49,622 nucleotides of DNA from an uncultured bacterium (GTDB taxonomy: Bacteria > Cyanobacteriota > Vampirovibrionia > Gastranaerophilales > Gastranaerophilaceae), in contig CASGEP010000020.1 of assembly GCA_949300515.1 (NCBI GenBank), positions 1-49,622 on the forward strand, given 5' to 3'. The position numbers and the translations under genes were made by a program. The notes under the pieces were generated by a model. That model worked only from the letters and a program-made list of their open reading frames with translations. It did no database searches and had not been told where the DNA came from. Position 1 is the first letter of the stretch. Each line of letters opens with the position of its first letter. This document shows, piece by piece, positions 3,541 to 41,372 of the stretch.

Positions 3541-6128
3541 ATGGACAATTTGCAAATCCAAAACATGGCAACAACGTATGAAGCAAGAAAGACTGAGGAA
3601 GAAATTTATAAGTTTTGGGAAACAAACGAGTGTTTCAAGGCTGACGCCAAGTCGAAAAAAGAGCCTTATTCAATCGTTATCCCCCCGCCAAACGTCACGG
3701 GTGTTTTACATATGGGTCATGCTCTGGATGGAACCCTGCAGGATATTTTAACCAGATACCACAGGATGAGAGGTTATGAAGCTCTCTGGCTCCCGGGGTG
3801 TGACCATGCGGGAATTGCCACTCAAAACGTGGTTGAAAAACAACTTGCAAAAGAAGGCAAAAGCCGCCATGACATAGGGCGCGAAGAATTTGTCAAAATA
3901 ACCTGGGACTGGGCAAATGACCACAAAAGTAAAATCTTAAACCAGTTTAAAAAACTCGGTGCCTCTTTTGACCTGTCGCGTGCCCGTTTTACGCTTGATG
4001 AGGGCTGCTCGCGCGCCGTTAAAAAAGTTTTTGTGGATTTGTACAACAAAGGATTAATTTATAAGGGTTCATATATTGTAAACTGGTGCCCCCGCTGCCA
4101 GAGTGCCATTTCTGACATTGAAACGCAGTATGAAAACGAAGAGGGTAAATTATGGGAGATTTCATACCCTCTGAAAGACGAAATGGGCGCAATTGTTATT
4201 GCAACTACCCGTCCTGAAACAATGTTTGGTGATGTTGCGGTCGCCGTTAACCCGAATGACTACAAATACAAGGATTTAATAGGCAAAAAATGCGTAATTC
4301 CCCTGACGGGACGTGAAATCCCTATTATTGCAGATGAATACGTTGATAAAAGTTTCGGTACGGGCGCACTTAAAATTACTCCCGCCCATGACCCCAACGA
4401 CTTTGAAGTCGGCAGGCGCCACGGTTTAAAATCAATTAAAGTAATTGATGAACAGGGCAGAATGATTGCATGCAGCGAGGTTCATCCGGAACTGCACGGC
4501 AGGGACAGATATGACGCGCGCGAGAGAACTTTAAGAATGTTAAAAGACCATCAGGTTCTGGTGCGCATAACCGATCACCCGCATGCCGTGGGAAAATGCC
4601 AGCGCTGCAATACAACAATCGAGCCTCTGCTTTCCGAGCAATGGTTTGTTAAAATGGAGCCTCTGGCAAAAGCTGCAATTGAAAAGGTTAAGGACGGCTC
4701 AATAAAATTTGTTCCTTCCCGCTGGGAAAAGAATTATTTAATGTGGATGGAAAATATACGCGACTGGTGTATTTCCCGCCAACTCTGGTGGGGGCACCAA
4801 ATTCCCGCTTATTACCATAAAAAAACGGACGAGATGGTTGTAGCGCTTGAAAATCCTGACCCCGATAACTACAGGCAGGATACGGACGTTTTAGACACAT
4901 GGTTTTCTTCAGGCTTGTGGCCTTTTGAAACAATGGGCTGGCCCGATACAAATTCTGATGATTACAAAAAATTCTACCCGACAACAACGCTTGTTACAGG
5001 TTTTGACATTATTTTCTTCTGGGTGGCAAGAATGATTACAATGGGGCTTGAATTTACAAAAGTTCCGCCGTTTTCCACCGTTTATATCCACGGACTTATA
5101 AGAGATGAAAACGGACAAAAAATGTCCAAGTCAAAAGGCAACACCATTGACCCCGTTGAAATTATTGAAAAGTACGGGTGTGATGCCATGCGCTTTACTT
5201 TAACTTCGCTCTGCACATACGGCGGACAGGATATCAAGCTTTCAAACGAAAGGTTTGAGTACGGCAGAAATTTTGCCAATAAAATCTGGAATGCTTCACG
5301 CTTTGTTTTAATGAATTTAACAAAGTCGGGTAAAGATTTAAAACTTGACCCTAAAGACTTCTCAATTGCCGACAGGTGGATTTTAAACGAGTTAAACAAA
5401 GTAATAAAAGAAGTAAATGAAAATATCGAAAACTACAGAATAGTTTCTTCTGGAATTATTACTGTGACTGGTATGTAGAGCTTTCTAAAATCGAAAAAAA
5501 TGAAGCCGTTATGGCGTATGTGCTTGAACAGTCTTTAAAACTGCTGCACCCCATTATGCCTCATATTACGGAGAAAATCTGGCAGTTAATGTCTGTTGAA
5601 AAAAGTGAAGTCGCCCTTATGAAAACGGATTTTCCCGTATATAATAAAGAATTTGAGTTTGAGTATGAGTCCGAACAAATGCAAAATGTCTTTGAGGCGA
5701 TTAAGTCTTTGAGAAACCTAAGGGCGGATTTTAATATACCGGTAGGCTCAAAAATAAATATTAAAATCGACGGGGATGAGGATTTGTTTTCAAAAATTAT
5801 CCCCTACATAAAACGTCTTGCGCGCGTTGAAAATGTTGAGTTTGAAAAGAATTCAAAGGATGAAAAACACTGCGCGTATTGCAGTGTGGGCGATACCAAA
5901 ATAGTCGTTCCGCTTGAGGGCTTAATTGATATTAACAAGGAAATTGAGCGTCAAAACAAGAAAATTCAGAAATTTGAAGCAGAACTTAACTCGCTTAACG
6001 CCAGATTGAACAATGAAAAATTTGTAAATTCGGCGCCAAAGGAAGTGGTTGAGCAGACAAGGGCGCGCACAAAAGAGATAAAGACGGAAATTTCAACAAT
6101 ATCTGAACTGATAAGTAAGTTATCATAA
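3541..6128 (+). pseudogene. valS: Valyl-tRNA synthetase, reading frame interrupted near codon 634
   Basis: The enzyme charges tRNA-Val. The first frame (3541-5478, 645 codons) holds the HIGH-type motif PNVTGVLHMGHAL (about residue 50), the editing insertion and the KMSKS motif (residues 527-531). It leaves the family text after NIENYRI at about 5442 and ends in unrelated residues. The family sequence resumes in another frame at about 5445 (FFWNYYCDWYVELSKI) and continues through the anticodon-binding domain and the C-terminal coiled coil to 6128. Compared with typical ValS about seven residues are missing at the junction, which fits loss of about 22 bases. As valS is normally single and essential, this is a sequencing or assembly fault, a fresh mutation, or a decayed second copy. 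The start has GAGGA five bases upstream. Confidence 0.9.
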
Positions 6129-19879: not shown

Positions 19880-19956
19880 CGGGCTGTAGCGCAGCTTGGT
19901 AGCGCACCACCTTGGGGTGGTGGGGGTCGCAGGTTCAAATCCTGTCAGTCCGACCA
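19880..19956 (+). tRNA. tRNA-Pro (anticodon GGG)
   Basis: Acceptor CGGGCTG/CAGTCCG (one G-T pair), D-stem GCGC/GCGC with loop AGCTTGGTA, anticodon stem CCACC/GGTGG with loop TTGGGGT and anticodon GGG, T-arm GCAGG/CCTGT with loop TTCAAAT, discriminator A and encoded CCA. The prophage integrase gene ends inside its 3' half, so this is the attachment locus. Confidence 0.94.
19935..19956. other. Probable left prophage attachment site within the tRNA-Pro 3' end
   Basis: The last six sense codons and stop of the leftward serine recombinase are read from the T-arm and acceptor strand of tRNA-Pro. This is the layout expected when a phage carrying a copy of the tRNA 3' end recombines into the gene and leaves the tRNA intact. 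The exact crossover dinucleotide and the matching right site, which must lie beyond base 49622, cannot be seen. Confidence 0.6.
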
Positions 19957-21464
19957 TTTTTATTTTTATTAAAATCTAGCACACACTTAAAGACTGAACG
20001 CAGTTCGTAGTGTGTGTTTTGTTCATTGCATGAAAGGTTCGAACACACGATATTTATTATTTCGCGTTTTTTGTCGGTATTTTGCTCAATATACCATCCT
20101 GCAAGGTTTTGAGTGAGTTCTAACATGATTTCGCTCGTGTTTAAAATATCATCGCTGTTTTTTGACAATTCTTCGTTTATTTCTGCTAGTTCTTGCAAGC
20201 GTTCTTGCCATTCTTGCCGCTGTTCTTTATATGTGAGTGCGTCTATTTCATCCTGTGCACGCATTATTAATAGTTTTTTCAAACGTTCCCGCAGAGTTTT
20301 TGTTTCTTTTTCTATTTGCGCAATTCTTTCCATGTTGCTGGCATGGGCGTTTTCAAGTTCAAATCTGATGGCTTCACGCACTTTTGTGCAGTATTCATCA
20401 GGTATAACCAGCCTTTTTAAAATGTCTATAAATTCGGCTTCAATTTTATTTTCATTGGTATATTTTTTAGTTTTTGCGCATTTTCCGCCTTTATTGCCTG
20501 TACACCTGTAATAAATGTATTCTTTTTGGGTTCCGTTTTTAAATTTTTTTATTTTATGTTCGCCAACGTACGCACATCCGCAATGCTCGCATTTAATAAG
20601 CCCCGTAAATAAGAAGTTATGCTTGTATTGTTTGGGTTTATTATTTTTATTTATTATGTTTTGAACCTGTCTGAAAAGCTCCCTTGATACTATTGCTTCA
20701 TGTTTTGCATTCTCGTAATATTCACCCTTAAAAATAAAGTCGCCCATATAAATAGGATTATTTAAAATATGCTCAACCGTGCTTTTTAAAACGGGTTGCG
20801 TGGGTGACTTTACAAAACCTTCTTCGCGCAGCTTCTTGGCAAGAGTTTTGTATGAGTACAACCCCGTGGCATAAAGGTTAAAAGCTCTTTTTATAAGCGG
20901 TGCCTTGGTTTCATCAATTTTTAAATAACTCTTTTTTCCTACTTTTTCACCCTTGTAGCCATAGACTGCTTTTTGCGGGTAGTGCCCCTCGGCCGCTTTT
21001 TGTTTGTATCCGTTTTTAACGTCGATTGATAAGTTTCTCGGGTACATCGAGGCCATGGAGCAATTCATGTTAAAAATCGTAAATTCAAAAGGTTTTGAAT
21101 CTTTATTTAAAACCATTCCGTCTTCAACAAAATGAAAATTTAAATCCGTTTTAAGTGCAAGGTGAATAATATTTGCTGCGTCTACCTCATTACGACAGGA
21201 GCGGTCAGTTTTTTTAAAAATAATATGCTTGATATTTTTATTTTTTTTAACATGTCCAAGCATTTCATTAAATACTTTACGCCCCGGCTCTTTTGCGCTT
21301 TCAGAGCAATTGTAGACCTTGTTTACAATAAAACCCTTGCCCACAGCATAAGCACGGTTTGAGCTTTCCTGATATTCGATTGAATACCCCTCCTGCCTCT
21401 GCTCATCGCTTGAGGTGCGATTGTATATGACGCATTGTTCAACAGTTGGTTTAATTAGTGCCAT
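19935..21464 (-). CDS. Large serine recombinase (prophage integrase)
   Basis: 509 residues. The N-terminal resolvase domain has the nucleophile in YNRTSSDEQ (Ser18) and the catalytic arginine motif DRSCRNEVD. The recombinase domain (GYKGEKVGKKSYLKID to NNPIYMGDF) and a zinc ribbon (CEHCG...YRCTGNKGGKC) follow, then a coiled-coil segment (MERIAQIEKETKTLRERLKK) as in phiC31/Bxb1-type integrases. It would integrate and, with a directionality factor, excise the prophage. Its 3' end lies inside tRNA-Pro. It starts two bases after the stop of the exonuclease-BRCT gene, so both are on one leftward transcript. Confidence 0.93.
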   Translation of the reverse strand: MALIKPTVEQCVIYNRTSSDEQRQEGYSIEYQESSNRAYAVGKGFIVNKVYNCSESAKEPGRKVFNEMLGHVKKNKNIKHIIFKKTDRSCRNEVDAANIIHLALKTDLNFHFVEDGMVLNKDSKPFEFTIFNMNCSMASMYPRNLSIDVKNGYKQKAAEGHYPQKAVYGYKGEKVGKKSYLKIDETKAPLIKRAFNLYATGLYSYKTLAKKLREEGFVKSPTQPVLKSTVEHILNNPIYMGDFIFKGEYYENAKHEAIVSRELFRQVQNIINKNNKPKQYKHNFLFTGLIKCEHCGCAYVGEHKIKKFKNGTQKEYIYYRCTGNKGGKCAKTKKYTNENKIEAEFIDILKRLVIPDEYCTKVREAIRFELENAHASNMERIAQIEKETKTLRERLKKLLIMRAQDEIDALTYKEQRQEWQERLQELAEINEELSKNSDDILNTSEIMLELTQNLAGWYIEQNTDKKREIINIVCSNLSCNEQNTHYELRSVFKCVLDFNKNKNGRTDRI

Positions 21465-32111: not shown

Positions 32112-32525
32112 TTGTCCAGAAAAACCAAATATGACGACGTTTTAAACGAAACTACGGGCGCCTTTTACAGCGGAAGACAAAAAGACAAGCTTATAAAAGA
32201 GCGCCTTAAAAAACTGAGCGAAATTTTCGACACCTGCGACATCGACAAAAACAAGCGTGACATCGCGCAGCCTTTAATCGAGCAAGCCGCTTTTATGTCG
32301 GTCGAGTTATGCGATTTAAAAGAGCAGATAAAACGCGACGGCTGCGTTGAATTTTACCAGAACGGCGCGAACCAAAAAGGCAGAAAACGAAGCGCCGCCG
32401 TAGATGTCTACAACACCATGATTAAAAATTATACCTCCGTGACAAAGCAACTTATAGACTTAATACCTAAAACTGACATGCTCGCGGATGACGGTTTTGA
32501 TGATTTTTTGAATGACTCCGATTGA
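32112..32525 (+). CDS. Terminase small subunit
   Basis: 137 residues from TTG 32112, which has GAGGTG six bases upstream; an earlier TTG at 32100 overlaps that site. The protein has the composition and layout of P27-type small terminases: basic N-terminus, helical DIAQPLIEQAAFMSVELCDLKEQI, a QKGRKRSAAVDVYNTMIKNYTSVTKQLIDLIP core and an acidic tail (DDGFDDFLNDSD). It recognises the packaging site for the large subunit. It overlaps terL by 14 bases. Confidence 0.8.
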   Translation: MSRKTKYDDVLNETTGAFYSGRQKDKLIKERLKKLSEIFDTCDIDKNKRDIAQPLIEQAAFMSVELCDLKEQIKRDGCVEFYQNGANQKGRKRSAAVDVYNTMIKNYTSVTKQLIDLIPKTDMLADDGFDDFLNDSD

Positions 32526-34200
32526 TGAAAAAACAAACCCGATATTTCAATACTATAGCGAAATCCAATCCGGCAAAATAATTGTTTCGACAAAAGTTAA
32601 ATTATTTTACAAACATTTAACCGAAGACCTGCTTGATGAAAATTCAAAATACTACTACTGCGAAAAGAAGGCAAACCGTGCACTGACATTTATTCAAAAA
32701 TACTGCAAACACATAAAAGGCAAATTTGCACGAAAGCCCTTTTTATTGGAACTATGGCAAAAGGCGCTTGTATGCGCTCTTTTTGGCGTATTAAACAAAG
32801 AAACAAATCTAAGGCGTTTTGTAAAAGTCTTTTTACTTGTCGCAAGGAAAAACGGCAAATCGATGCTTGCCTCGGCTATAGCGCTCTATTGCCTTGTTGC
32901 CGATAACGAACCCGGCGCAGAATGCTACGCCGTTGCGACAAAACGCGACCAGGCAAAAATAATCTGGAGCTGCGCGGTGGATATGGTTAAAAAATCCCCT
33001 GCTCTGAATAAAAGACTCAAATGTCTTGTTTCAAGCGTAAAATACGAAAAAACAAGCAGCTTCTTTGTACCGCTTGGAGCCGACTCCAACAAGCAGGACG
33101 GCTTAAACCCTCACATCGCAACAATTGACGAAATTCACGCTTTCAAAGATAAAAATTTGTACGATGTTGTAATAGACGGTATGGGCGCACGCGAACAGCC
33201 TATAATTTTCATAACAACAACCTGCGGGACAATTCGGGAAGGCATTTTTGACATCGAATACGACGAAGCGACAAGCGTAATCGACGGTTACCGTGACCCC
33301 GACAAATACCAGGACCCGACGTATTTGCCCCTTTTATATGAACTTGACTCAAAAAACGAATGGACAAACGAAAAATTCTGGCAAAAAGCAAATCCAAATC
33401 TTGGTGTTTCAAAATCCCTCGAATACCTAAGAAGTAAATACAAAAGGGCGCAAAATGATGCAAGAAACCGCAAAAACTTCCTTACTAAAGATTTAAACGT
33501 AAGGGAAAACAACGGCGAAGCCTGGCTGAGTTTTGACGAAGTCGTTAACAGTGCAAAATTTGATATCTCATTGCTTAAGCCTGACTATGCAATAGGCGGC
33601 GTTGACCTTTCGCGCACAACCGACCTTACAAGCGCCTGCATAATTTTCAGACTTAAAGACGACCCCATACTGTATGCGCAGCATATGTACTGGCTTCCTG
33701 AGGATGTATTTGAAAAAAGAATACAGGAGGACAAAATACACTATGACGTTTGGCACAAACAAGGCTTTTTAAGACTCTGCCCCGGCAACACCATAAGGGT
33801 GGAAGACGTAAAAGACTGGTTTTGCGAAATGTACGAGCAGTACGACATTTATTTACCCTATTGCGGTTATGACAGTTGGAGCAGCAGGCACTTTGTAGAC
33901 ATTATGAAAATAAGCTTTGGTGAACAGTGTATGGAGCCTGTCATACAAGGCAAAAAAACGCTCTCACTCCCCATGCAGCAGATGGGAGCAGACTTAAAAG
34001 CAAAGCTTATAAATTACAACGACAACCCCATAACCCGTTGGTGCTTATCAAATACAAGCGTTGATATAGATAAAAACGGCAATATTCAGCCCGCAAAAAC
34101 ATCGAATTCAAAGCTCAGAATAGACGGCACGGCGGCGCTTCTTGATGCATATACGATTTATTTAAAAAGACAAGAAGAATACATGGCACTTATCACATGA
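32512..34200 (+). CDS. Terminase large subunit
   Basis: 562 residues. The ATPase has Walker A VARKNGKSM (about 110-118) and Walker B with catalytic Glu in IATIDEIHAF (about 201-211), then coupling motif IIFITTTCG. The nuclease half begins at GGVDLSRTTDLTSA (about 365) with the metal-binding Asp, and later GYDSWSSRHFVD. This is the Terminase_1/HK97 group. It pumps DNA into the prohead. Small-subunit overlap and the portal overlap (ATGA) show a tight packaging operon. Confidence 0.95.
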   Translation: MTPIDEKTNPIFQYYSEIQSGKIIVSTKVKLFYKHLTEDLLDENSKYYYCEKKANRALTFIQKYCKHIKGKFARKPFLLELWQKALVCALFGVLNKETNLRRFVKVFLLVARKNGKSMLASAIALYCLVADNEPGAECYAVATKRDQAKIIWSCAVDMVKKSPALNKRLKCLVSSVKYEKTSSFFVPLGADSNKQDGLNPHIATIDEIHAFKDKNLYDVVIDGMGAREQPIIFITTTCGTIREGIFDIEYDEATSVIDGYRDPDKYQDPTYLPLLYELDSKNEWTNEKFWQKANPNLGVSKSLEYLRSKYKRAQNDARNRKNFLTKDLNVRENNGEAWLSFDEVVNSAKFDISLLKPDYAIGGVDLSRTTDLTSACIIFRLKDDPILYAQHMYWLPEDVFEKRIQEDKIHYDVWHKQGFLRLCPGNTIRVEDVKDWFCEMYEQYDIYLPYCGYDSWSSRHFVDIMKISFGEQCMEPVIQGKKTLSLPMQQMGADLKAKLINYNDNPITRWCLSNTSVDIDKNGNIQPAKTSNSKLRIDGTAALLDAYTIYLKRQEEYMALIT

Positions 34201-35384
34201 TTAATTTATTTAAAAACATAAAAAATAAGATATCGCCTAAAAAAAGCGTGTACGGCGTAAAGTTAATGCAACAGAATACATACGCTAACACTTTCAGCTA
34301 CGACGGGCAAATTTATCGCTCCGATATCGTGCGCGCCTGCATAAGACCGTTTGCAAATGCCATAAGTAAACTCTATGCAAAACATATAAGATTAAGTGCA
34401 AACAACATCTTAGTATACCCCGAACCCTATATAAAAGCACTGCTTGAACAGCCTAACCCCTATATGCACGGGCAAATGCTTTTGTATAAGCTTGCAATAC
34501 AAACAAAACTCAACTCAAACGCTTTTGCGCTTATATACAGAGATGAAAACGGCTGCCCTTCGCAAATCTACCCTATCCCCGCCGTAGCTGCCGATGCGCG
34601 ATACGATGATTACGGCTATTTATGGATTGAATTTCTTGTCAAAAACGGAAATAAATTTACTTTCCCATACCGCGATTTAATACATTTGAGGCAAGACTAC
34701 AACGAAAATGATATTTTTGGCGAATCGCCCTCAAGAACGCTTGTTGATCTTATGGATATTGTCGCAACAACTGATTCGGGTATTAAAGGCGCCATTATAA
34801 ATGGCGGCACGCTTCGATGGCTGCTCAAATTTAATCAGGTTGTAAAACCCGAAAAACTCAAAGAAGAAGCGCTCAGATTTATGAAAAATTATTTGAGCAT
34901 AACAGATACCGCGGAAGACAATAATATTGTGGGTGCCATTGACAACAGGGCAGTGCTCGAGCAGCTCAAAACAGACGATTATGTGCCAAACGCCACTCAA
35001 ATGGATAAAACCATAAATCGTATTTACAATTTTTTTGGCACAAACGAGAAAATTATACAGGCAAAATACACGGAAGACGAATGGAATGCATATTCTAAAA
35101 GCGAGATTGAACCGTTTGCGCTTCAACTGCAAAACGAGTTCACATCTAAATTATTTACACCCCGCGAGCGCGCCTGTGGCAATAAAATCGTTTTTGAAGA
35201 GGCGTCTTTGCAGTGTGCGAGCATATCAACAAAATTAAATTTGCGCGAAATGGTAGACAGGGGCGCAATGACACCGAACGAGTGGCGCGCTGCGTTTAAC
35301 CTGCCGCCAATTGACGGCGGTGACAAACCGCTAAGACGGAAAGATACGGGATTCGCCCAAGAAGACAGCGGAGGTAATAATTGA
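34197..35384 (+). CDS. Portal protein (HK97 family)
   Basis: 395 residues. IVRACIRPFANAISKLYAKHI, the LLEQPNPYMHGQMLLYKLAIQTKLNSNAFALIYRDE segment, FPYRDLIHLRQDYNENDIFGESP and the C-terminal REMVDRGAMTPNEWRAAFNLPPIDGGDKP are standard for the Siphophage/HK97 portal family. Twelve copies form the DNA entry ring. It overlaps terL and the protease gene. Confidence 0.95.
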   Translation: MINLFKNIKNKISPKKSVYGVKLMQQNTYANTFSYDGQIYRSDIVRACIRPFANAISKLYAKHIRLSANNILVYPEPYIKALLEQPNPYMHGQMLLYKLAIQTKLNSNAFALIYRDENGCPSQIYPIPAVAADARYDDYGYLWIEFLVKNGNKFTFPYRDLIHLRQDYNENDIFGESPSRTLVDLMDIVATTDSGIKGAIINGGTLRWLLKFNQVVKPEKLKEEALRFMKNYLSITDTAEDNNIVGAIDNRAVLEQLKTDDYVPNATQMDKTINRIYNFFGTNEKIIQAKYTEDEWNAYSKSEIEPFALQLQNEFTSKLFTPRERACGNKIVFEEASLQCASISTKLNLREMVDRGAMTPNEWRAAFNLPPIDGGDKPLRRKDTGFAQEDSGGNN

Positions 35385-36139
35385 TGAATACAATTGAAGA
35401 CAATTTAGACCAATTTTTGCAGGTGCACAATGTCACAAAAAACAGTGCAGACCTTTATTTTTACGGTTATATCGTTTCCTCTTGGTGGGGTGCACTTGAT
35501 GAGTGCGACCAGTACCCTGCGAGTGTTAAAAATTTCTTAAACTCGGTTAAGGGAAAAAATTTAAACATATATATAAACTCGGGCGGCGGCAATGTTTTTG
35601 CAGGCATGGCGATATATAACATGCTTAAACGTCACGAGGGCTACAAAGTCGCATACAATGACGGCGTTATGGCTTCAATATCAAGCGTAATCCCGCTTGC
35701 GGCGGATAAAGTTATAATGCCCGAAAATTCGCTTTACATGGTACACAAACCAATGCTCAATATTTCGGGCAACGCAGATACAATGCGAACCGCCGCAGAT
35801 ATTCTGGATAAAACTCAGGAATGCATTTTGCAGACATATATGCAATACGCAAAGCCCGGTATAACAAAAGAGGCAATCAACGATTTAATGAACGCTGAAA
35901 GCTGGTTGAGTGCACAAGACACTCAACAATATTTCAATTTTGAGATATCCGCGGCAAATAAAGTAGTCGCAAGTGCACAATACAGCGGATTTAGCAAGAA
36001 TATTGAAAACTCTTTTGTAGATAACGCCCTGAATATAAGAAAAACGGAATTAATTGAAGCACAAAATATAAAAAATAAAAAGATATTGCAGACAAAATTA
36101 AATTTTATAAGGATGAAAGGAGTAAATAAATGTCTTTAG
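35384..36139 (+). CDS. ClpP-like head maturation protease
   Basis: 251 residues from the ATG at 35384 (GGAGG ten bases upstream; a TTG one codon earlier is in frame). It is a ClpP/S14-type prohead protease: NIYINSGGGNVFAGMAIYNML, the nucleophile in DGVMASISSV (Ser98), the His in NSLYMVHKP (His121) and DLMNAESWLSAQDTQQYF. It would cut the N-terminal delta domain of the capsid protein. The usual Ala-Ala-Ser-Ala-Ala stretch is MASISS here. It overlaps the capsid gene start by ten bases. Confidence 0.92.
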   Translation: MNTIEDNLDQFLQVHNVTKNSADLYFYGYIVSSWWGALDECDQYPASVKNFLNSVKGKNLNIYINSGGGNVFAGMAIYNMLKRHEGYKVAYNDGVMASISSVIPLAADKVIMPENSLYMVHKPMLNISGNADTMRTAADILDKTQECILQTYMQYAKPGITKEAINDLMNAESWLSAQDTQQYFNFEISAANKVVASAQYSGFSKNIENSFVDNALNIRKTELIEAQNIKNKKILQTKLNFIRMKGVNKCL

Positions 36140-37380
36140 CTGAAAACTACAAAGCACAAAGAGGGGAGCTTGAAACACGCGCGCAGGCTCTTATTGACGA
36201 AAACAAGGCGGATGAAGCACAAAACGTACTCGACGAAATTAAAAAGCTTGATGAGGAGTTTGAAAACGCGGCAAAAATACAGGCAAACCTAAATTCAATC
36301 AAAGACAAGCCGGCTGTTAATTTCCAAAATGCTCAAAAGCCTTCGCAAAATGCTCCCGTAATTGATAATTTTACTCATAGTGATGTCAAAGACGAGGTAA
36401 AATTGTACGAAACGGCTTTTGCAAAGAACCTTATGGGGCAACCCCTAAACAATTTAGAAAATGAAATTTTTGACAAAGTTAATCTTGATTTTAAAAATGC
36501 TGCCCAAACAACAGAACAGCATGGAGTGTTGGTGCCTAAAACGGTACAAGAAAAAATATTCAGAAAAATAAGTGAGCTGCACCCTGTTCTTGCTGATGTA
36601 ACAGGTTTTGGCGTTAAAGGCGACTTAACTTTTCTTGTTGATGAAGCAACAACCGACGCGGCAAATAAAGACCTCTGGACAAACGAAGCAACCGAAACAC
36701 CCGACAGTAAAGACGCTAATTTTAAAGAAATCACTTTAAGCGGCTGTGAATTGGTCAAAGGCACCACTCTGAGTTGGAAATTGAAGAAAATGTCAATAGA
36801 CGACTTTTTAAATTACGTTATTGAAAAATTGTCGGAAAAAATGGGCAATGCACTTGCCTACGCATTTTTTAACGGCAAAGGAAAACCTGGCGACTCGGAT
36901 AACTTTAAGGCGCAGCCCTTAGGCGTTATAACCGCCCTTAGCAAAGAAACTTCAACGCCCCGTATAGTTACATATACAGATACCGACGACCTTGAAGTAA
37001 AAGTAAGAAATACAATTGCAAAAGTAAAAAGCGGCTACGGCAAACTCGCCTGCATTTACGCAAACAATGATTTTGTCTGGAATACGCTTGCAAACATTAA
37101 AGACAAGAACGGCAGGGCGTATTTTGTAACCGATTACAACTCAGGCGGTGTCGGCAGGATTTTTGGGCTTGTGGTCAAAGAAGAGGATGCGGTACCAAAC
37201 GATAATATGGTAATAGGCGCATTTAAAAAATGCTATACGTACAATACAAATGAACCCATGTCGATTACTTCGCAAGATGAAACAAGAAAGCGCCAGACAT
37301 TCTACAGCGCATATTCAATCATTGACGGTGCACCCCTTGACCTTGACGGCTTTGCACTCTTAAAAAAAGCACAGTCGTAA
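36130..37380 (+). CDS. Major capsid protein (HK97 fold)
   Basis: 416 residues. The N-terminal 60-100 residues are an acidic coiled-coil delta/scaffold domain (LAENYKAQRGELETRAQALIDENKADEAQNVLDEIKKLDEE), expected to be removed by the protease. The mature part has AAQTTEQHGVLVPKTVQEKI, the E-loop/P-domain text (DLWTNEATETPDSKDANFKEI), and LAYAFFNGKGKP, all typical of HK97 capsids. AGGAG lies eight bases before the ATG. The last codons before the stop (TTA AAA AAA GCA) form a slippery run followed by a strong stem, and the -1 frame stays open for 98 more codons (separate entries). Confidence 0.94.
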   Translation: MSLAENYKAQRGELETRAQALIDENKADEAQNVLDEIKKLDEEFENAAKIQANLNSIKDKPAVNFQNAQKPSQNAPVIDNFTHSDVKDEVKLYETAFAKNLMGQPLNNLENEIFDKVNLDFKNAAQTTEQHGVLVPKTVQEKIFRKISELHPVLADVTGFGVKGDLTFLVDEATTDAANKDLWTNEATETPDSKDANFKEITLSGCELVKGTTLSWKLKKMSIDDFLNYVIEKLSEKMGNALAYAFFNGKGKPGDSDNFKAQPLGVITALSKETSTPRIVTYTDTDDLEVKVRNTIAKVKSGYGKLACIYANNDFVWNTLANIKDKNGRAYFVTDYNSGGVGRIFGLVVKEEDAVPNDNMVIGAFKKCYTYNTNEPMSITSQDETRKRQTFYSAYSIIDGAPLDLDGFALLKKAQS

Positions 37381-37435
37381 GCTCAGGGGATAACAGCGGC
37401 GAAGAGGATACAGCCCCCGCACTGGAGCTTACGGC
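37362..37435 (+). promoter_or_regulatory. Probable -1 ribosomal frameshift signal at the end of the capsid gene
   Basis: The heptamer A AAA AAA (37362-37368), in the zero frame of the capsid gene, is followed after five bases by the stem GTCGTAAGCTC (37374-37384) with GAGCTTACGGC (37425-37435): 11 pairs with one G-T. GGGG and CCCC inside the loop can extend it. The capsid stop codon lies within the 5' arm. No T-run follows, so it is not a terminator. Confidence 0.75.
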
Positions 37436-37664
37436 GTTAAAAACAATGTGCGGTAAATTCAGCATCGAAACAACAGACGATGATACGGTAGAAACAATAA
37501 AAACAAAAGTGGCGGCGCAAACTTTTGAGCAAACAGCACTTGAAGAAAGCACGGTATTAAAAGAGGACCTGCAGCAAATTGCTCTGTGCTTTGACTGCCA
37601 GATAACGCAATCAAACACTAAAGCCGAGCTTGTGGAAATGATAATCGATGCACAAACTGTGTAA
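37368..37664 (+). CDS. -1 frame C-terminal extension of the major capsid protein
   Basis: In the -1 frame the reading is open from 37347 to the stop at 37662-37664, entering from the capsid frame at AGC 37368. It adds 98 residues: a Gly/Ser/Glu linker (STVVSSGDNSGEEDTAPALE) and a small helical domain ending NTKAELVEMIIDAQTV, similar to HeH/SAP-like domains found at phage structural proteins. An ATG inside (37446) could start a separate 72-residue protein, but it has no ribosome-binding site and the only GGAG upstream is 18 bases away and buried in the stem. Expected product: a 511-residue minor capsid form. Confidence 0.6.
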   Translation, partial: STVVSSGDNSGEEDTAPALELTALKTMCGKFSIETTDDDTVETIKTKVAAQTFEQTALEESTVLKEDLQQIALCFDCQITQSNTKAELVEMIIDAQTV

Positions 37665-37672
37665 GGTAAAAA

Positions 37673-37960
37673 ATGCTTGATGACATAAAACAATACCTCC
37701 GTGTTACACACAACCTCGATGATGAAATGCTTAACGGATTAATTTTAATCGCAAAGCAGCTTATTGTCGAAAAAACGGGCATAGAATACAAGGAAGGGGA
37801 CGGCGCATATTTAATGCTAATTCGCTTCCTTGTCGCCCATTTTTATGAAAACAGAGAGGCAGTGGGTGAAAAGGCAATGTCTGAAATGCCCTACACCATT
37901 CAGCACTTAATGGTGCATATCGCACTGAGGGGGGACTATGACCAACAGGGGCAAGTATAA
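37673..37960 (+). CDS. Head-tail connector (gp6-like)
   Basis: 95 residues. MLDDIKQYLRVTHNLDDEMLNGLILIAKQLIVEKTGIEY followed by LMLIRFLVAHFYENREAV is the gp6/DNA-packaging connector family of HK97-type phages, an all-helical ring under the portal. The end (PYTIQHLMVHI) is typical. It overlaps the next gene by 23 bases. Confidence 0.88.
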   Translation: MLDDIKQYLRVTHNLDDEMLNGLILIAKQLIVEKTGIEYKEGDGAYLMLIRFLVAHFYENREAVGEKAMSEMPYTIQHLMVHIALRGDYDQQGQV

Positions 37961-40812: not shown

Positions 40813-41193
40813 ATGACAGAGAAAAAAGAAAAACTTACGGTTGAAAAAATTCTGCAGCAGAAAAAAATATTTGATAAAAAGTTAAACACCCCTTATTTTT
40901 GTCAAATTCTTGATTGCGAAATTGATATAGAGGAGCATTCCATAAGCAAAGTAAGCGCAATAATTAACAAAGAATACGACGACCCCATGCGCGCTGATTT
41001 AGAGTTGATTTACGCTTTTTGCTCCATTTTTCGCTCAAAAAAACTGCAGGAAGAACTCGGTGTTGAAGACCCGATTGACACGGTCGAGCTGTCACTCGGG
41101 CACAATATAACGGAAATAAACGCTCTTGTGAAGCATATTCTTGCCCGCTACGGACTCGGGGAGGATAAAATACAGAAAATAAAAAAGCAATAG
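40813..41193 (+). CDS. Tail assembly chaperone (XkdN-like, G-type product)
   Basis: 126 residues. LTVEKILQQKKIFDKKLNTPYFCQILDCEIDIEEHSISKVSAIIN and ALVKHILARYGL are typical of XkdN-type chaperones that hold the tape measure during tail assembly. The gene ends AAA AAG CAA TAG, a consensus -1 slippery site, and the other frame continues with chaperone-type sequence (separate entries). Confidence 0.82.
   Translation: MTEKKEKLTVEKILQQKKIFDKKLNTPYFCQILDCEIDIEEHSISKVSAIINKEYDDPMRADLELIYAFCSIFRSKKLQEELGVEDPIDTVELSLGHNITEINALVKHILARYGLGEDKIQKIKKQ
41158..41187 (+). promoter_or_regulatory. Probable -1 frameshift site of the tail chaperone
   Basis: A AAA AAG (41181-41187) sits in the chaperone frame two codons before its stop; this is the most efficient -1 heptamer in bacteria. 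GGGGAGG (41158-41164), about 16 bases upstream, could act as an internal Shine-Dalgarno stimulator. No strong downstream stem is evident. Confidence 0.75.
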
Positions 41194-41372
41194 AGAGTGA
41201 CGACGACTTGTTTTTGATACACTACTGGCTTAAAACAAAGTCTTTTGACGAAATTTTAAGTTGGAGCCATTTTGAAAAACAATTCGCGTTCGCTTCAATG
41301 CTTTTAAACCTTGAAAAAGAAAATTACTACGTTAAAAACCTTGTAACACTTCTCGGGGGAAAATATGAGTAA
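41187..41372 (+). CDS. -1 frame extension of the tail chaperone (T-type domain)
   Basis: From GCA 41187 the -1 frame reads 61 residues to TAA 41370-41372: ESDDDLFLIHYWLKTKSFDEIL, then SHFEKQFAFASMLLNLEKEN and LVTLLGGKYE. It has no start codon or ribosome-binding site at its beginning, fills an otherwise empty 170 bases, and overlaps the tape measure start by eight bases. The W-LKTKSFDEIL-W-F-ASM pattern is what follows XkdN-like chaperones in other contractile tails. Expected fusion: 186 residues, the counterpart of lambda gpGT. Confidence 0.75.
   Translation, partial: AIESDDDLFLIHYWLKTKSFDEILSWSHFEKQFAFASMLLNLEKENYYVKNLVTLLGGKYE

Follow-up and report, generated by a model that had tools for sequence, protein, structure and literature searches.

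The major capsid gene of what seems to be a prophage in an uncultured member of the Gastranaerophilaceae very probably ends in a programmed −1 ribosomal frameshift, which would add a 98-residue acidic, helical domain to a fraction of the capsid subunits. This reading is favored by the association of a slippery heptamer with the extension in related loci, the spelling of that heptamer, covariation in the stem, the stability of the downstream RNA, selection in the −1 frame, the lack of a Shine-Dalgarno (SD)-like motif in the extension, and the layout of the same region in Lactobacillus phage A2. The sequence studied, hereafter the window, is a stretch of 49,622 nucleotides (contig CASGEP010000020.1) from a draft genome that consists of 57 contigs and is 94.6% complete.

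Capsid locus and candidate frameshift site

The head genes of the apparent prophage stand in the usual order. A gene at 19935-21464 (region 19880-21464), which by eye we take to encode a recombinase, abuts a tRNA-Pro (GGG) gene; this junction is probably the left end of the prophage, with the other end lying outside the contig. The features of the head region are as follows.

32512-34200: terminase (Pfam/PHROG profile scans, head gene order)
34197-35384: portal protein (head gene order)
35381-36139: ClpP-type protease (head gene order)
36130-37380, plus strand: major capsid protein, zero-frame product of 416 aa with HK97 fold (PF05065, 1.8e-30; phrog_10 major head protein, 2.8e-50)
37362-37368, plus strand: slippery heptamer A AAA AAA in the zero frame, first base 16 nt before the stop (read directly; conserved in carriers)
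37369-37373, plus strand: 5-nt spacer GCACA (read directly)
37374-37384, plus strand: 5' arm GTCGTAAGCTC of an 11-bp stem, the proposed stimulator (pairing with covariation in four sequences)
37378-37380, plus strand: zero-frame capsid stop TAA, within the 5' stem arm (read directly)
37425-37435, plus strand: 3' arm GAGCTTACGGC of the 11-bp stem (pairing with covariation in four sequences)
37368-37664, plus strand: −1 frame extension, 98 codons and TAA (open frame, AF2 model, dN/dS)
37673-37960, plus strand: gp6-like head-tail connector, starting 9 nt past the extension stop (PF05135, 2.2e-8)

An AF2 model of the capsid protein (mean pLDDT of 70.5) matches HK97-type capsids in the PDB, the best being a GTA capsid (E 1.3e-10). 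The 3' end of the gene reads TTA AAA AAA GCA CAG TCG TAA, with three sense codons between the A7 run and the stop, while the −1 frame is open across 37347-37664, 98 codons of which follow the shift. The two stem arms form 11 bp, one of them G-U. The coordinates of heptamer, spacer, stem, and −1 frame given in the original prediction were exact to the base, and its 511-residue capsid form agrees with the length that we computed for the predicted long form (413 + 98 residues). The predicted junction runs GFALLKK into STVVSSGDNSGEED, and the predicted masses of the two uncleaved forms are 46.2 and 56.5 kDa, a difference of about 10.3 kDa. By analogy with A2, whose record has a mat_peptide, maturation may cleave off the N-terminal portion of capsid proteins of this kind.

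Signal in the window sequence

By itself, the window sequence makes a moderate, suggestive case. A7 runs are frequent, with 91 on both strands of the window, which is below the shuffled mean of 136. A gapless stem of at least 11 bp (G-U allowed) starting 3 to 10 nt downstream was found at 49 of 3000 random plus-strand sites within 24000-49000. The 82-nt fold gave a z of −1.72, and 13 of 200 shuffles were equally good. When upstream sequence was included (201 nt), z was −1.71 and the 11-bp stem was not part of the minimum free energy structure, in which 37334-37355 pairs with 37369-37389; a ribosome at the slip site would cover the upstream part that competes with the stem. A search of Rfam with 37300-37700 gave no match up to an E of 1. 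No SD-like stimulator was found upstream of the window heptamer; 7 of 24 carriers (loci with both heptamer and domain-bearing extension) have a 4-nt SD-like motif in the 20-nt stretch ahead of the heptamer, and 7 of 60 noncarriers have one at the equivalent place.

The original prediction held that the combined signal was more than a chance overlap. The single sequence only suggests as much, and it is the comparison with relatives that carries the case far beyond chance. Chance overlap is rejected because of the stem covariation, the selection in the −1 frame, the association of heptamer and extension, and the Lys-Lys spelling, as set out below.

Heptamer and extension in related capsid loci

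Capsid relatives were gathered from several sources. Among 383 genomes of the window's order/family, 11 had a match, the window's own included, and a search in 15 genomes of its genus returned the window's own copy only. One homolog, L002, is on a single genome-contig record (98% identity). A tblastn search with the window capsid at 1e-5 found 37 GenBank phage records, of which 12 were fetched; A2 is absent from these 37 and was added by accession. The IMG/VR capsid loci came in overlapping sets of 63, 10, and 62; some single-protein scans of viral contigs gave no relative, and another gave 10 loci. The full set held 131 loci, of which 122 were usable and 84 remained after dereplication. The nine left out were two that run off the contig (L065 and L066), five that duplicate other loci (L096-L100), one false match (L010), and one without an extension (L012).

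The original prediction had proposed that the heptamer be sought in relatives, where A AAA AAA or A AAA AAG was indeed found ahead of homologous −1 frame extensions. In L002, L003 and L026/L027 (both 52% identical to the window in the capsid), L004 (42%), L005 (35%), and L009 (25%), it lies 10 to 16 nt before the stop, and the extensions reach 83 to 97 codons past the stop. In L090-L092, which are 68% identical to L009, it lies 7 nt before the stop. Another kind of extension was found in 13 dereplicated loci, 8 of which were scanned, all of them matching CBM_X2 (E 1.1e-6 to 2.5e-20), with two matched stretches in L029 and three in L045. The extension of L056 matches Rho_N over the cutoff (4.6e-9), and that of L058 (4182-4697) is a helical domain split by a Baseplate_J-like piece (1.6e-16), which makes the −1 extension itself modular. 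Three further loci (L059, L060, and L067) are near-identical to L058 at the junction.

The raw count over the 84 loci was 24 with heptamer and extension, 5 with the heptamer only, 5 with the extension only, and 50 with neither (Fisher p of 1.4e-11, on rows that are related to one another). The heptamer-only loci are L014, L018, and L082, in which the −1 frame is closed, and L019 and L021, with 20 aa. The extension-only loci comprise L081, L124, and L129, where by eye the open stretch is the next gene, L008, where the frame is unrelated, and L022, which is HeH-like. For the tree, L008, L081, L124, and L129 were labeled as having no extension by hand and A2 was left out, giving 83 rows: 23 with both traits, 3 with the heptamer only, 1 with the extension only, and 56 with neither. 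A heptamer 7 to 16 nt before the capsid stop was therefore present in 23 of 24 loci with a domain-bearing extension (A AAA AAA or A AAA AAG) versus 3 of 59 without one, any XXXYYYZ being counted. The 31 loci L101-L131 served as a control, and in none of them does a heptamer coincide with an open −1 frame; past the stop, the −1 frame of 29 stays open for 24 codons at most, and the long stretches of L124 and L129 were read as the next gene.

Because only four independent pairs lie on well-supported branches, a pair test alone cannot reach significance; the heptamer goes with the extension in a mean of 3.4 of the four pairs (median p of 0.25). The tree was made by a quick method, A2 sits on a very long branch, and recombination is likely. 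Subject to these limits, the tree without A2 requires 6 changes of the trait, which disfavors a single origin of all carriers.

The spelling of the heptamer gives a further comparison. Lys-Lys occurs within the last ten codons of 37 dereplicated capsids, 23 from carriers and 14 from noncarriers. In every one of the 23 carriers it is written NNA AAA AAR, the NNA codon being TTA, CTA, TCA, GTA, or ATA, whereas 11 of the 14 noncarriers use nonslippery spellings such as CGT AAG AAA, ATC AAA AAG, or GTT AAA AAA, and the slippery spelling of the other three goes with a closed −1 frame in each (Fisher 4e-7, on rows that are not independent). Counted from where the heptamer begins, the distance to the stop is 7 to 16 nt in all 23 carriers, and the stop is TAA in 8, TGA in 8, and TAG in 7.

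The one HeH-like −1 extension that lacks a heptamer belongs to the distant L022 (Enterococcus gallinarum phage phiEG37K), where 3586-3801 holds, by eye, a 50-aa HeH-like −1 stretch with no XXXYYYZ. The stop is flanked by GGGGGAG on its 5' side and by CCCCTA/TAGGGG repeats on its 3' side, and this is possibly another type of shift site.

Conserved RNA structure downstream of the heptamer

Compensatory changes in the stem, which the original prediction had suggested looking for among relatives, were found in the window's subgroup. The 11-bp stem, preceded in each case by a 5-nt spacer, is present in the window, L002, L003, and L026, where 44 of 44 cells are paired and 6 of the 11 pairs have changed on both sides. 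The covariation over these four sequences is 0.712 versus 0.33 ± 0.09 when shuffled (0/500) and 0.015 to 0.152 when slid, and RNAalifold recovers the same stem unprompted; the alignment did not extend to the remaining helical carriers. A hairpin of another shape occupies the 77 nt after the heptamer in the CBM_X2 carriers L029, L030, L048, L053, and L055, in which a one-sided gap of 9 nt separates the outer stem (12 pairs) from the inner one (8 pairs). In this sample (5 of 13 dereplicated carriers, picked for gapless alignment), 92 of 100 cells are paired and 9 of 20 pairs show two-sided change. A similar one-sided gap of 15 to 16 nt is predicted in L003 and L026. Over the 85 nt after the heptamer, the 24 carriers (A2 included) have a mean z of −2.43, with 15 below −2 and 9 short of it; in A2, L056, L058, and L090, which are among the 9, this RNA is no more stable than shuffled sequence. 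In the window's subgroup, a conserved RNA structure is present a few nucleotides 3' of the heptamer, where it may stimulate the shift.

These data bear on the strongest rival to ribosomal frameshifting, slippage of RNA polymerase on the A7 run. A base would be added or dropped, some mRNAs would encode the fusion in one frame, and the product would be near-identical. The heptamer is A7 in 22 of the 23 carriers, as slippage by the polymerase would have it, and excerpts of PMC5009743 indicate that both kinds of shift are possible at some sites. However, L004 uses A AAA AAG and A2 uses C CCA AAA, A7 runs are common in the window, and a stem that covaries and stays 5 nt from the heptamer is typical of a ribosomal stimulator. 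A run of seven is also short for polymerase slippage. We consider this alternative improbable.

The extension as a conserved protein domain

The original prediction held that the extension reads as real protein, and this is borne out by the pattern of substitutions and by structure prediction. Between the window and L002, dN/dS of the extension is 0.145 in the −1 frame versus 0.70 and 2.3 in the other frames (stops skipped), and between L003 and L026 it is 0.074 in the −1 frame. The extension is conserved as a protein, and in the −1 frame it evolves under purifying selection. The part before the first ATG (37368-37445) has three nonsynonymous and no synonymous changes, too few to judge dN/dS. 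The window and L002 differ at 98 capsid codons and by 19 substitutions in the extension, with the last 14 capsid codons identical; since the connector gene is almost identical between the two (dS of 0.017), rates near the junction may be blurred by recombination.

An AF2 model built from eight homologous extensions (mean pLDDT of 88.2, pTM of 0.77) has a low-confidence acidic linker at residues ~1 to 20, followed by helix-loop-helix units at 21-30/41-50 and 65-74/85-96 and a short helix. The model of the window extension consists of helices only, and the extension has no Ig-like Pfam match, nor any significant match to Pfam as a whole; a search of the annotated-phage collection gave no match at an E of 0.01. 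Profile scans of the relatives gave Rho_N matches below the cutoff in L009 (1.2e-3) and L091 (1.1e-3), an HeH match below the cutoff in L058 (2.4e-4), a value of 0.056 for HeH/Rho_N in L004, and no such match in L003, L026, or L005. Foldseek comparison of the predicted fold returned 30 PDB matches, none with an E of ≤0.001, and 144 BFVD matches, none significant, of which the best (E 0.5) is annotated HeH/LEM. The best match of the extension profile to PDB sequences, the Mu-like gp35 (2out; E 0.034), was not significant. These weak leads hint at a tandem domain distantly like HeH/Rho_N, and we call it HeH-like rather than HeH. The 20 extensions measured (of 24) are all acidic, with net charges of −2 to −45. 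Because of this acidity a DNA-binding role is disfavored, and outward display seems likelier.

It is highly improbable that the extension is instead an independent small gene, with translation beginning at a start codon of its own or resuming past the capsid stop by reinitiation. A free HeH/LEM gene does adjoin the capsid gene in Streptococcus phage vB_Sags-UPM1, according to excerpts of PMC10221047, and in at least 8 of 24 carriers (L005, L025, L029, L030, L043, L046, L048, and L049) one or more of the first six start codons inside the extension is accompanied by a 4-nt SD-like motif. The window extension has no such motif at any of its start codons, in line with the ribosome-binding site that the original prediction had reported missing, although its "only ATG" has to be corrected: there are two ATGs, at codons 26 and 90 (counted from 0), and three GTGs. 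The first of these ATGs (residue 27) would cut the predicted helix 1 (residues 21-30), and the extensions of L003, L026, L004, L005, and L009 lack an ATG among their first 50 codons. A separate gene would also leave the spelling of the heptamer unexplained. Start positions, the missing SD-like motif, and heptamer spelling together thus disfavor an independent gene. The original prediction had named a free-standing copy of the extension as evidence against itself, and a search of the 383 genomes of the window's order/family with the domain profile found the domain in four genomes (E < 1e-28), each time as a −1 frame extension of a capsid gene and never as a free gene; all four were already in the query alignment. 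A further 9 matches were weaker (E 1.6e-4 to 8.6e-4).

A sequence or assembly error, by which one base more or less would put capsid and extension into a single frame in every subunit, might be entertained for a draft genome of 57 contigs. On the same contig, what we take by eye to be a valyl-tRNA synthetase-like gene (valS) is split between frames (3541-5478 and 5511-6128, the frames changing near 5440-5510); because of this split, which is either a real lesion or an assembly indel, indels may exist in the window genome. An error at the capsid gene is nevertheless rejected as having next to no chance of being right, since both the A7 and the stop recur in L002, which lies on a contig of another record and differs in 98 codons of the capsid gene, and all 23 carriers keep the heptamer and a nearby stop, of which there are three different kinds.

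Proposed mechanism of frameshifting

Under programmed −1 frameshifting, most ribosomes at TTA AAA AAA would read three more codons to the stop and release the 416-aa capsid protein. The stem 5 nt downstream, whose pairing is supported by covariation, would pause a fraction of the ribosomes with two tRNA-Lys on AAA AAA. Both tRNAs would slip back one base, again onto AAA AAA, and the −1 frame would then be read for 98 codons, yielding a capsid protein of 511 aa that ends in an acidic helical domain. By analogy with T7 10B and A2 gp5B, the long form would be a minority subunit that is coassembled and shows its domain on the head. One tRNA-Lys (UUU) was found among the 30 of 32 host tRNA loci that were read; the two unread loci, of 87 to 88 nt, have the size of class II tRNAs. 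The efficiency of the shift is expected to be modest, going by what excerpts of PMC5009743 give for E. coli.

A 126-aa open reading frame (40813-41193) contains a second candidate heptamer, A AAA AAG at 41181-41187, 10 nt ahead of its stop, and the −1 extension runs for 60 codons (41181-41372). This is likely a second −1 frameshift, in what gene order suggests to be the tail assembly chaperone. Excerpts of PMC5009743 describe frameshifting in tail assembly chaperone gene pairs as widely conserved in long-tailed phages.

A constant heptamer with varying domains

Known capsid frameshifts are, to our knowledge, single cases, several of them with Ig-like domains. Frameshifting to −1 in capsid genes is itself already described (A2, T3/T7, and A118/A500). 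Three points seem to be new: the use of a predicted capsid frameshift to deliver a tandem helical HeH-like domain, the covariation support for the stems in the window's capsid family, and the combination, within a single capsid family, of a constant heptamer with a varying domain. An HeH domain placed on a capsid by frameshifting was not found in the open-licensed literature searched. Long forms of this kind may be missed by annotation, as the extension has no match among annotated phages and three Lactobacillus capsids (below) were deposited without a join.

The domains found behind the heptamer are tandem HeH-like, Rho_N, one to three copies of CBM_X2, and HeH-like with a Baseplate_J-like insert. 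The constant part is the heptamer and not the added domain, which differs among related phages. We hypothesize, at even chances of being right, that the slip site is an exchangeable "decoration socket" of a large capsid family, in which domains are swapped behind an A AAA AAA heptamer that is retained or reacquired, usually along with a long downstream stem. If so, phages could change the decoration of the head and its dose with the capsid lattice unaltered. With the signal in 23 dereplicated loci and two unrelated kinds of domain (helical HeH-like/Rho_N and CBM_X2, or three kinds if the Big_2 domain of A2 is counted), this one capsid family lets one ask which element is fixed and what the displayed domains do.

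Comparison with known systems

The proposed extended capsid would, on sequence grounds, fit the type of A2 gp5B and T7 10B, an extension on an HK97-type major capsid protein. Phage A2 is reportedly a capsid frameshift case published by Garcia in 2004. Its gp5A/gp5B pair resembles the window in having a heptamer 10 nt before the capsid stop, an 86-aa −1 extension, and the gene order portal-protease-capsid. It differs in that its heptamer is C CCA AAA rather than A AAA AAA and its extension matches Big_2, whereas that of the window is predicted to be helical. Excerpts of PMC5009743 describe the A2 case as a −1 frameshift with an Ig-like extension on the major head protein.

Close to A2 in their heptamer are the Lactobacillus phages PLE2, iA2, and P2.4 (L019, L020, and L021; ~3709-3783), whose capsids are homologs of the window's (33%) and have C CCA AAA 10 nt before the stop. 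Unlike in the window, the −1 extension is just 20 aa and is followed by a gene with, by eye, an apparent ribosome-binding site, and the capsid coding sequences are those deposited without a join. This looks like a capsid shift site that lost, or never gained, a domain.

The precedents named in the original prediction, T7 10A/10B and Listeria phages, are indeed described in excerpts of PMC5009743. These, with excerpts of PMC13370021, report a minority capsid form made by −1 frameshifting in the 3' region for T7 10A/10B, T3 gene 10, and K1F 10b, the extension of T3 being Ig-like and that of T7 not (PMC5009743). The likeness of T7, T3, and K1F to the window, a capsid extension reached by a −1 frameshift, is drawn from these descriptions. 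The same excerpts of PMC5009743 report capsid gene frameshifts in Listeria phages A118/A500 (−1) and PSA (+1). Also compared by description, PSA differs from the window in shifting +1 at a proline codon with a pseudoknot.

The added domain has its own parallels. Ig-like domains are described in excerpts of PMC5009743 as moving by nonhomologous recombination and landing in or out of frame. The phage proteins with HeH/LEM and Rho_N domains resemble the predicted structure of the window extension in their helix-loop-helix kind of domain; in vB_Sags-UPM1 the HeH/LEM domain is a free gene (excerpts of PMC10221047), whereas the HeH-like domain of the window would be fused to the capsid protein by the predicted frameshift.
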